Part shown: piece by piece, positions 26,603 through 28,720 of the stretch
How the letters are laid out: each line of letters begins with the position of its first letter
How positions within the stretch are numbered: position 1 is the first letter of the stretch
Assembly (NCBI RefSeq): GCF_029240175.1
Contig: NZ_JARBTM010000016.1
Coordinates: 1 to 64,000, forward strand
Length of the DNA stretch: 64,000 nt
Direction of reading: 5' to 3'
Source: Anaerosolibacter sp.
GTDB lineage: Bacteria; Bacillota; Clostridia; Peptostreptococcales; Thermotaleaceae
Notes under the pieces: model-generated
Told to the model about the DNA's origin: nothing
Databases searched by the model: none
The model's input: only the letters and a program-made list of their open reading frames with translations
Translations under genes and position numbers: made by a program

Positions 26603-26794
26603 TCATCTGTGTTTTTCTTGTTTTAGGTCATTTCCACCATGATCTTCTAAGAACCGTTTTTTGTTCTCTACAAGTTGTCGGTACTGATTCTGATCAATAA
26701 TCCCCTGTTTTTTAAGGTTGTCCATCATTTCAATGAACTCTAGACATAACACCGTTAAATCCTTTTTCACTTTGTTCTCTTCACACATTCCCAT
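26603..26794 (-). CDS. Small helical hypothetical protein
   Basis: The protein has about 63 residues and looks entirely helical and charged (DLTVLCLEFIEMMDNLKKQGIIDQNQYR). The segment KKQGIIDQNQY resembles short SHOCT-like helical tails, but the match is weak. The GTG at 26809 is possible; the ATG at 26794 follows AAAAAGGATG and is preferred. It stands alone between AT-rich regions. I do not recognise a function. Confidence 0.5.
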   Translation of the reverse strand: MGMCEENKVKKDLTVLCLEFIEMMDNLKKQGIIDQNQYRQLVENKKRFLEDHGGNDLKQEKHR

Positions 26795-27070
26795 AACATC
26801 CTTTTTCACTTATTGCATTGTGGTAGAAAAAACACAACAAAGCTCATGGATTTACCATTTGCACTATTAATATATCTTAAAAATGGGTTTTTGTCAATTA
26901 TATTATTTATTTGAGTTACATTTTTTATTTATATATGAGTTTTATTCAATGTATAATTTTTGTTTTATTACTATATTTTATTATTCTTATTTTCTTCATT
27001 CTTACTATTCTCTTTATACCAATATAAATTGTCTTTAAACAAATCTTTCTCTGCTATATAATACATTTCA
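26795..27070. other. AT-rich intergenic region
   Basis: This stretch of almost 280 bases is very AT-rich, with no open frame supported by a ribosome-binding site and no clear hairpin before the terminator at 27071. It probably holds the promoter of the small gene at 26603-26794. Confidence 0.5.
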
Positions 27071-27104
27071 AAAAAGAAAAGAGCTACCAGTTACCCAGCA
27101 GCTC
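27071..27104 (-). terminator. Terminator of the HTH-TPR/peptide operon
   Basis: On the minus strand GAGCTGCTGG and CTGGTAGCTC pair, partly by G-T wobbles, across a GTAA loop, followed by TTTTCTTTTTT. It lies 14 bases after the peptide gene stop codon. Confidence 0.75.
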
Positions 27105-27117
27105 AATACAATAAATC

Positions 27118-27252
27118 TTATTTATCACTCTCTGTTAACAAAATTCCTGGTTTAATGCTCCATGGATGTGGATCTTCCCCTGCTAAAGCTACCACACCTA
27201 GACCCATATTGATCAATACCATTAAAATCATTGCAACCAATAACTTTTTCAT
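27118..27252 (-). CDS. Secreted signalling propeptide, cognate of the HTH-TPR receptor
   Basis: This 44-codon gene has a strong AAGGGGAG ribosome-binding site seven bases before its ATG. The peptide has a classical signal sequence: MKK, then a hydrophobic core (LLVAMILMVLINMGLGVV), and a signal peptidase site ALA-GE after residue 24. The exported remainder is 20 residues, starting GEDPHPWSIK and ending TESDK. It begins 24 bases after the stop of an HTH-TPR regulator in the same operon, exactly where Phr/PapR/NprX-type peptides lie in RRNPP systems. I infer that it is exported, trimmed and re-imported to bind that regulator. The final active fragment is unknown. Confidence 0.78.
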   Translation of the reverse strand: MKKLLVAMILMVLINMGLGVVALAGEDPHPWSIKPGILLTESDK

Positions 27253-27276
27253 ATTAATCTCCCCTTTAGTTTATAA

Positions 27277-28605
27277 TTAGGATTTGTCTAGAACAAAGTC
27301 TAGCAACTCCATACTTTTTTCTAAATCTTTCTCCATAAAATATCTGGCTATTCTTAGGAAAATTCCTTTTACAATTTCATAAAAGTACTTATCGCAATCA
27401 GCGGTAATTTCTCCTTTTATTTCTTCAATAAGTTGTTCTAAATAAATACTTTTTTCTCTATTTATATAGCAATAAGCTAATCCATCATATGCCTCAATTA
27501 CTATTTTCTTATCATTTAACTCTTTTGCTCTGAATATTGCTTTTGTCAGTGCATTTTCTGCTGCATCATAATTCTGAACCGCCATAAGCCTATGTCCTAA
27601 AATCAGATATGCATTTGGTAAATCTACACTATTATTCTTCAGACGAATTTTTATACTTTCATTTAAGCATTCGATAGCCTTATCTATCTGATTATTTTTA
27701 TAATGTAGCTCAGCCAAATTAATTAACAGGAGTGCTTTAGCTTCTAAATTATCTGCTCCATTAGATAGTTCGTATATTTTTTGATAAATCTCAAGTGCTA
27801 TATTACTGTCTCCCAATGCTAAATAACAGTTTGCCTTTAGCATAAGAACATCTATGCGTCGTGATGCTATCAAATCACCATATGAACTCTCTAACTCCTT
27901 TAATAGTTCGATACTTCTCTCATACTTATTCAATTTCTTGTAGGCCAAAGCGTTATTGAACAGTAACCTAAGCATCAGATTTCTATCGACAATATGATTA
28001 TTCTGCATAATCAATAGGGCCTGATTGTCTAAATGAACCGCCTCTTCATAGTTTCCTCGCTCAATGGCGCATCTAGCAAGTTTTGAATAGAGCTGAGCTA
28101 CACTTGAATTGCTTGAGAGTCTTGTATAATTCTCTAAAGAAATCAAATAATCTATGTAACTATCACTGAATCTTTTTTCTTTATAATGATAATCTCCTAC
28201 TTTTTCATAAATCTCCGCTTTCTTTTCAGCTATATCCCAATCCTTCAATACACCTCTTGCCTTGTTAAACTCTTCAAGAAACTTTGATCCTTCTTGATCA
28301 AACAGTGTATTTAAATTATTTAAATGCCTGTTCAAAATACCTTCAGCCTGCTCTATTTCACTTTGCATAAGGTACTCAGCAGTAAAATCAACGGATATAT
28401 TTCTCTCTTGTGCCAATCTCTTCAGATTTTCTACAATAATCTCTGCAGTATCTTTCGTTAACTTCGTCTTTCCCTGTTCAATATAACTTATTAGATTTCT
28501 ACTGATTTTTCCATTTGATGTATCTTGCTGGGTTGCATCTAGGTAGACACGAAGCCTTTTCAATTTTTCGCCTGGCGGCAAAATGGTATTTTCTAGAAAA
28601 TACAT
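27277..28605 (-). CDS. HTH-TPR transcriptional regulator, RRNPP-type peptide receptor
   Basis: The 442-residue cytoplasmic protein starts with an XRE-type helix-turn-helix (about residues 10-65: PGEKLKRLRVYLDATQQDTS...RNLISYIEQGKTKL). About nine TPR-like helical repeats follow (e.g. KLARCAIERGNYEEAVHLDNQ, LAYKKLNKYERSIELLKE, NCYLALGDSNIALEIYQKIY). This is the architecture of PlcR, NprR and related peptide-binding regulators. GGGAGGAAAG precedes the ATG. The small secreted peptide gene follows in the same operon. Target genes cannot be read from the sequence; self-regulation and control of the adjacent amj-like gene are candidates. Confidence 0.87.
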   Translation of the reverse strand: MYFLENTILPPGEKLKRLRVYLDATQQDTSNGKISRNLISYIEQGKTKLTKDTAEIIVENLKRLAQERNISVDFTAEYLMQSEIEQAEGILNRHLNNLNTLFDQEGSKFLEEFNKARGVLKDWDIAEKKAEIYEKVGDYHYKEKRFSDSYIDYLISLENYTRLSSNSSVAQLYSKLARCAIERGNYEEAVHLDNQALLIMQNNHIVDRNLMLRLLFNNALAYKKLNKYERSIELLKELESSYGDLIASRRIDVLMLKANCYLALGDSNIALEIYQKIYELSNGADNLEAKALLLINLAELHYKNNQIDKAIECLNESIKIRLKNNSVDLPNAYLILGHRLMAVQNYDAAENALTKAIFRAKELNDKKIVIEAYDGLAYCYINREKSIYLEQLIEEIKGEITADCDKYFYEIVKGIFLRIARYFMEKDLEKSMELLDFVLDKS

Positions 28606-28690
28606 GTACTTTCCTCCCGCTGCTTGACAAATCGCAATTGTAACTCCATCACCTCAGCAATTTTTTACAATTTTCTGTATCTTTTTCTAT

Positions 28691-28720
28691 ATTTTATCAA
28701 TTTTCGATTCGATTTGTCAA
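28691..28720 (-). promoter_or_regulatory. Promoter of the HTH-TPR/peptide operon
   Basis: On the minus strand a perfect -35 TTGACA (28720-28715) is followed after 18 bases by TAAAAT (28696-28691). The spacer holds ATCGAATCGA and the imperfect dyad ATCGAAAATTGAT, a possible operator for autoregulation. The transcript would have a leader of about 85 bases. Confidence 0.55.

Follow-up and report, generated by a model that had tools for sequence, protein, structure and literature searches.

A probable Qsr-related RRNPP-type receptor and propeptide pair of Anaerosolibacter sp. with a sensing half and signal suggestive of a pherotype-like mosaic

The window (the whole 64,000-nt stretch of DNA analyzed here, which is the start of contig C34 in a 3.87 Mb Anaerosolibacter genome) carries two adjacent genes which, as judged from their sequences, are an RRNPP-type receptor and propeptide of a Qsr-related branch, and as such ordinary in kind. 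What is new is the mosaic found on comparison with A. carboniphilus: a conserved promoter and HTH half versus a divergent TPR half and exported peptide, which suggests a pherotype-like pattern. We consider it likely that the pair comprises a cytoplasmic RRNPPA-type receptor and its cognate secreted propeptide, encoded by one autoregulated transcript, and that sensor and signal differ together between sister species (a pherotype locus).

Results

Organization of the Gene Pair

The following features were distinguished within the locus:

28691..28720, minus strand: promoter TTGACA-18-TAAAAT, almost unchanged in A. carboniphilus
28704..28712: dyad TCGAaTCGA in the promoter spacer, candidate operator
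28624..28634, plus strand: TTGACAAATCG, inverted copy of 28710-28720, candidate second operator
27277..28605, minus strand: HTH-TPR regulator (442 aa), putative RRNPPA-type receptor related to Qsr/QssR
28354..28605, minus strand: DNA-binding half of the regulator, residues 1-84
27280..28353, minus strand: TPR sensing half of the regulator, residues 85-442 (18 helices, read as nine TPRs)
27253-27276: gap of 24 nt between the regulator and the propeptide ORF
27259..27265, minus strand: ribosome-binding site AGGGGAG (AAAGGGGAG) of the propeptide gene
27118..27252, minus strand: propeptide gene (44 codons), the ORF directly 3' of the regulator
27181..27252, minus strand: predicted signal sequence MKKLLVAMILMVLINMGLGVVALA, propeptide residues 1-24 (cut after ALA read by eye)
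27154..27171, minus strand: PHPWSI codons, central to the predicted pheromone (region of DPHPWSI)
27081..27104, minus strand: intrinsic terminator (10-pair stem, then a T run)

The coordinates and lengths given in a preliminary description of the pair (a 442-aa HTH-TPR regulator, a 24-nt gap and a 44-codon ORF) agree with the sequence, and the strong ribosome-binding site and the terminator behind the propeptide gene were likewise recovered, the latter with a fold z of -3.4 (1 of 200 shuffles equally good). The ALA-GE junction at the end of the signal sequence is present in the letters; the signal sequence itself was called by a heuristic of hydropathy and charge plus reading by eye. Beyond the terminator lies a 68-residue ORF (26603-26809, minus strand) with no Pfam family above its cut-off, in DNA about 78-80% identical to that of A. 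carboniphilus.

The promoter has a TG before the second hexamer and 11 of 12 consensus bases, and it is among the two best of 13 promoter-like matches; since shuffled sequence contains 10.8 such matches on average, the consensus by itself is a weak argument. The promoter call is backed by A. carboniphilus, whose promoter is identical to that of the window at 32 of 34 bases (counted by eye). The spacer dyad noted previously is present at 28712-28704, but it is short. The second candidate operator, TTGACAAATCG, repeats the first 11 bases of the promoter element in inverted orientation, adjoins the ribosome-binding site of the regulator, and has been kept in part in A. carboniphilus.

Family, Fold and Phylogeny of the Regulator

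A search with the single regulator sequence matched 17 of 98 relatives at 1e-5. Profile A1 found matches in 71 of 393 genomes of the order at 1e-20, in 4 of 391 in a sample of the class at 1e-30 (window genome included), and in 32 of 206 of family f51 at 1e-40. Most of the 71 genomes of the order had one match, in family f4, at about 1e-20 to 1e-35; these matches are presumed RstA-type genes, assigned by inference and named as such by no record. One genome of family f51 (G907) we take to be C. acetobutylicum ATCC 824, on the basis of its QspB sequence. The ORF behind its best regulator encodes TRSLLGAEPTWGWNISKLLF, the QspB tail printed in the accessible part of PMC7376267. QsrB shares 33% identity with the window regulator (E 2e-41) and matches profile A1 at 1.1e-78.

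The AlphaFold model of the regulator (mean pLDDT 95.3) consists of an N-terminal DNA-binding helical bundle followed by the 18 helices. Pfam gave TPR matches above the cut-off and HTH_19 below it, and no named RRNPP family of Pfam or NCBIfam matched the regulator. In a structure search NprR aligned over 346 residues (Z 24.7) and RapI reached Z 22.9, at 14% sequence identity; the best fold matches were eukaryotic TPR proteins (LGN), and since scores equal to or above that of NprR are common among TPR proteins, the fold search does not single out RRNPP proteins.

A quick 116-row tree paired the window regulator with that of A. carboniphilus (support 99) inside a 13-row branch (92). This branch belongs to a 60-row group that includes Qsr (support 98, drawn open), within which the window regulator falls outside the C. 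acetobutylicum group; it is likewise separated from the presumed RstA-type rows and from L026 (G000:C20:29108-30151), a second HTH-TPR regulator of the window genome. No peptide ORF was found behind L026, and it was taken to be an RstA-like orphan because of its position in the tree. A mobile element was considered and rejected: the phage search gave no match, viral contigs no confirmed relative, and plasmids four weak records.

Co-occurrence of Regulator and Peptide Genes

The pairing was assessed among the 14 regulator rows scoring at least 326 bits with profile A1 (nine of these rows belong to the profile), minus L022 (53 nt of downstream sequence) and L028 (broken frame); L034 (a 222-aa fragment, 295 bits) was also left out. 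A peptide ORF lies directly downstream, on the same strand, of 10 of the 12 evaluable regulators (families f1, f3 and f6, counting that of the window). An RBS-led, signal-peptide-like ORF stands just downstream of 3 of 353 other genes (4 of 354 with the window gene) in 439 kb of the same genome, the criteria for the background genes and for the relatives being similar, not identical. The pairing of regulator and peptide thus exceeds chance. The reading of the pair as an RRNPP-type receptor with its propeptide, put forward in the preliminary description, gains from both the predicted TPR fold and the retention of the ORF beside homologous receptors, the absence of which had been named there as grounds for giving it up.

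The pairing is not universal. The close relative L095 has no peptide ORF behind the regulator, and no convincing peptide gene was seen on inspection of 13 regulators of family f51, on the Clostridiaceae side of the tree (L077, L100, L102-L105, L107-L110 and L112-L114), so that regulators of this family are often unpaired; they might eavesdrop or respond to a different ligand. L094, which is among the ten paired regulators, also stands on the Clostridiaceae side, outside the branch of the window.

These unpaired genes bear on a second reading, in which the regulator is an orphan in the manner of RstA, and the small ORF, located there by chance, codes for an unrelated micropeptide, either membrane-bound or secreted. 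The 13 related regulators speak for it, as does C. difficile RstA, which is likewise an HTH-TPR regulator and, according to the accessible text of PMC6414698, is without the adjacent peptide gene that the window regulator has; the match to an annotated plasmid rstA is weak (E 6e-6). Against it stand the ORF beside the regulator in 10 of 12 cases from three families, the P..W motif common to the peptides (see below), and the divergence of the small ORF in step with the sensor half. We regard the orphan reading as improbable and retain the receptor with a cognate propeptide.

Two further observations were made during inspection of the relatives. In an eleventh locus, L050 (G118), a frame without an ATG, GTG or TTG start reads NPVPWSIDR, with a hydrophobic stretch and NPVPWSIDRNII. 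Genome G017 alone contains 13 regulator matches (L009, L023, L030, L035-L043 and L045), six of them followed by a signal-peptide ORF with other endings (QDPNPVED and GGDPFPYEH type); these peptides form a second, multi-copy peptide family in the order.

Propeptide and Predicted Pheromone

The exported parts of the ten paired peptides contain the following cores:

window: DPHPWSIKP
L089 (A. carboniphilus): NPRSWGIQP
L092 (G067): EPRPWSVDP
L093 (G059): ETEPWAENP
L091 (G005): GPEPWSIGP
L094: VPGPWSIKG
L051: TPTTWSYII
L083: EPGVWSIII
L090: DAPAWD
L096: DQPSWG

A proline precedes the tryptophan by one to three residues in all ten, and PxPWS(I/V) is exact in four of them. The tryptophan is next to last in two peptides and last in none (0/10), and a common leucine is not evident by eye among the ten. 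The window peptide has no motif of the kind known from Phr or NprX peptides.

In make-up the window peptide (stretch GEDPHPWSIKPGILLTESDK) equals QspB, with a P, then a W, then a tail behind the core (QspB as given in the accessible part of PMC7376267), and the active region is predicted around DPHPWSI. The recognized fragment, previously described as unknown, thus becomes predictable from the core of P shortly before W that is common to the relatives. The window core is internal, with an 11-residue tail behind it, so the prediction requires C-terminal processing.

The PxPWSI pattern occurs at 24 sites in two genomes. Twenty were examined as loci: 13 truly encode Ser, and on inspection by eye no site other than the two already known belongs to a signal-peptide ORF, so that no orphan peptide of this type was found among them. 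One doubtful site, L202, is antisense to a 550-codon frame. In the A. carboniphilus propeptide a second W-containing stretch, SKAWSS, follows PRSWGI and is perhaps a decayed internal duplication. A subtilase gene adjoins the pair on the peptide side in both G067 (L092:4355-6082) and G059 (L093:93-1865); the L092 protein contains Peptidase_S8, that of L093 is 71% identical to it, and the enzyme could be a propeptide-processing protease.

Mosaic Structure of the Locus

The window locus and that of A. carboniphilus are syntenic, with nine neighbors 76-94% identical. The comparison of these two genomes delimited one further feature:

26916..28353, minus strand: diverged segment comprising the sensor half, propeptide, terminator and spacer, with conserved flanks on both sides (edge at 26916 approximate, because the spacer is non-coding)

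The DNA-binding half of the regulator (residues ~1-85) is 86-90% identical in amino acids (88%) and 82% in nucleotides, like the flanking genes, versus 41% amino acid identity for the TPR half (residues ~86-442). Propeptide identity is 62% over the 24 positions of the signal sequence and 32% over 19 positions of the exported part. The dN values are 0.06 for the HTH half and 0.52 for the TPR half, compared with 0.03 for amj, 0.09 for ykuD and 0.03 for the DUF4015 gene, and the best amino acid change point in the regulator lies at residues 81-89. Stronger conservation of the HTH half than of the TPR half is a general trait of this family, seen in 16 of 16 hand-picked pairs, and the difference is largest in the window pair.

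The synonymous sites follow the same division. At identical residues, codon identity is 0.60 in the HTH half (43/72) and 0.58 in seven flanking genes (1265/2197), as opposed to 0.40 in the TPR half (57/144; p = 3e-5 vs the flanks, p = 0.006 vs the HTH half), where full randomization expects 0.43; among 1196 contiguous flank segments of TPR-half size, none falls below 0.46. Within the regulator taken by itself, the evidence for a synonymous change point is weak (log-likelihood gain 5.3). As a control, L026 and L044, the RstA-like orthologues in these genomes, are 100% identical in the HTH and 83% in the TPR half, with codon identities of 0.59 and 0.57 and no break. The synonymous sites of the TPR half thus look saturated, which makes the sensor half seem older than the surrounding locus, and not just under faster selection, as after an allele replacement, and suggests that sensor half and signal were replaced together by a diverged allele.

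Two other pairs of loci were compared in this respect. The loci L092 and L093 have flanks 71-84% identical, an HTH half 88% and a TPR half 56% identical, and codon identities of 0.59 (TPR) and 0.65 (HTH), without a synonymous excess. The paralogues L091 and L028 of G005 form a within-genome mosaic of the sensing half: their first 630 nt are 97-100% identical in DNA, identity falls from 86 to 29% in the rest of the regulator, and it is 96.6% again over 174 nt beyond the regulator. L028 is frame-broken and has lost the peptide.

Alternatively, the sensor half may have diverged in place, by very fast evolution under diversifying or relaxed selection, with no allele replaced. This would fit the TPR-only tree, in which the alleles of the two species are still sisters (96) and which points to no donor, and also L092/L093, whose sensor half is faster in protein while its codon identity stays near that of the HTH half. 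It fits poorly with synonymous sites that look randomized in the TPR half and not in the HTH half and flanks, with the change point at residues 81-89, and with the fall and return of DNA identity in the G005 paralogues. We therefore judge divergence in place to be rather unlikely, though not remotely so, and favor replacement by a diverged allele.

Neighboring Genes and Candidate Targets

The gene for Amj (an alternate to MurJ) and cell-wall genes lie beside the pair and had been suggested as its possible targets. In favor of this reading, the two genomes of the genus, which alone share the neighborhood, both have amj directly upstream on the same strand. Against it, none of the genes neighboring the pair recurs at eight further loci with homologous regulators (6-14 kb per locus), and ten flanking proteins scanned from six of these loci included no Amj. 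Moreover, each of the two Anaerosolibacter genomes has a single copy of the full promoter element (up to 3 mismatches), at the locus of the pair itself. Its 16-base core (up to 2 mismatches) gave 8 matches vs 3 in the control in the window genome, and 7 vs 7 in A. carboniphilus. Because the neighborhood is confined to the genus and the full element to the locus of the pair, Amj is unsupported as a target, and regulation of these neighbors appears very improbable.

A half-site was also tried as operator. Of 13 promoters from the clade and its near kin, 8 contain AGTAAAT (1.2 on shuffling) and 11 contain GTAAAT; both are absent from the promoters of the window and of A. carboniphilus. The AGTAAAT half-site is not claimed, because it was chosen post hoc, is AT-rich, and the commonest 7-mer of the shuffles reached 11.

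Discussion

The exact pair of the window was not found described in the literature searched, in the portions accessible, in agreement with the preliminary description; it is not isolated, the closest described system being Qsr/Qsp. The Qsr loci of C. acetobutylicum have the same layout, an HTH-TPR regulator of 434-443 aa followed on the same strand by a signal-peptide propeptide of 39-50 aa. They differ in that the Qsr regulators (seven intact genes) are 28-33% identical to that of the window, which belongs to a separate branch and another order. According to the accessible sections of PMC7376267, L, P and W are conserved near the C terminus of the Qsp propeptides, with W usually last, unlike the PxPWS(I/V) core present in 4 of the 10 paired peptides. 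The same source (Kotte et al., 2020) reports that synthetic AEPTWGW, a stretch of QspB, restored butanol formation in C. acetobutylicum overexpressing qsrB.

RRNPPA receptors are cytoplasmic, end in a TPR superhelix and, Rap excepted, have an HTH domain. NprR/NprX and Rap/Phr resemble the window system in their nine-TPR receptors, a layout that extracts of PMC12700828 assign to the clan of QssR, NprR and Rap, and differ from it in sequence, as the low identity in the structural alignments indicates. The mosaic has a parallel in ComR/ComS of S. suis, where the DNA-binding domain and target box are constant and the C-terminal sensing half and the signal vary between strains (available passages of PMC4072589). 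ComR differs as a five-TPR receptor of clan A (PMC12700828, accessible part), whereas here the receptor has nine predicted TPRs, the propeptide a predicted signal sequence of Sec type, and the pattern is seen between species. No pherotype mosaic of Qsr-type systems was noticed in the accessible portions of the literature searched.

By analogy with the family, the following mechanism may be proposed. Receptor and propeptide would be made from a single autoregulated transcript; the propeptide would be exported by Sec and cut after ALA, and its tail trimmed to yield a short peptide around DPHPWSI. This peptide would re-enter the cell via an oligopeptide permease and bind to the nine-TPR superhelix. 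The window genome encodes two SBP_bac_5 oligopeptide-binding proteins above the cut-off, which is weak evidence for re-import because the family is widespread. Binding would most likely relieve repression mediated by the HTH domain, as QspB peptides counteract QsrB. The repressed sites would include the promoter of the system itself (spacer dyad and second site near the ribosome-binding site) and further targets; C. difficile RstA is autoregulated via an inverted repeat at its own promoter (PMC6414698, accessible part). The difference in sensor half and signal between the sister species would most likely reflect replacement by a diverged allele, with promoter and DNA-binding half kept.

A wider proposal is made tentatively, with somewhat less than even confidence. 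There may be a Qsr-related RRNPPA branch outside Clostridium with an internal pheromone of PxPWS(I/V) type just behind the signal-peptidase site, in which sensing half and signal gene are swapped jointly, as a cassette, with promoter and DNA-binding half staying in place; sister species would then control the same regulon in mutually unintelligible dialects.

The pair extends the Qsr-type peptide quorum sensing of Clostridium to Anaerosolibacter and related families and offers a testable pheromone sequence, around DPHPWSI. It also provides two natural alleles that are nearly alike in DNA binding and appear to differ in signal recognition, so that specificity in nine-TPR receptors may be mapped by half-gene swaps.
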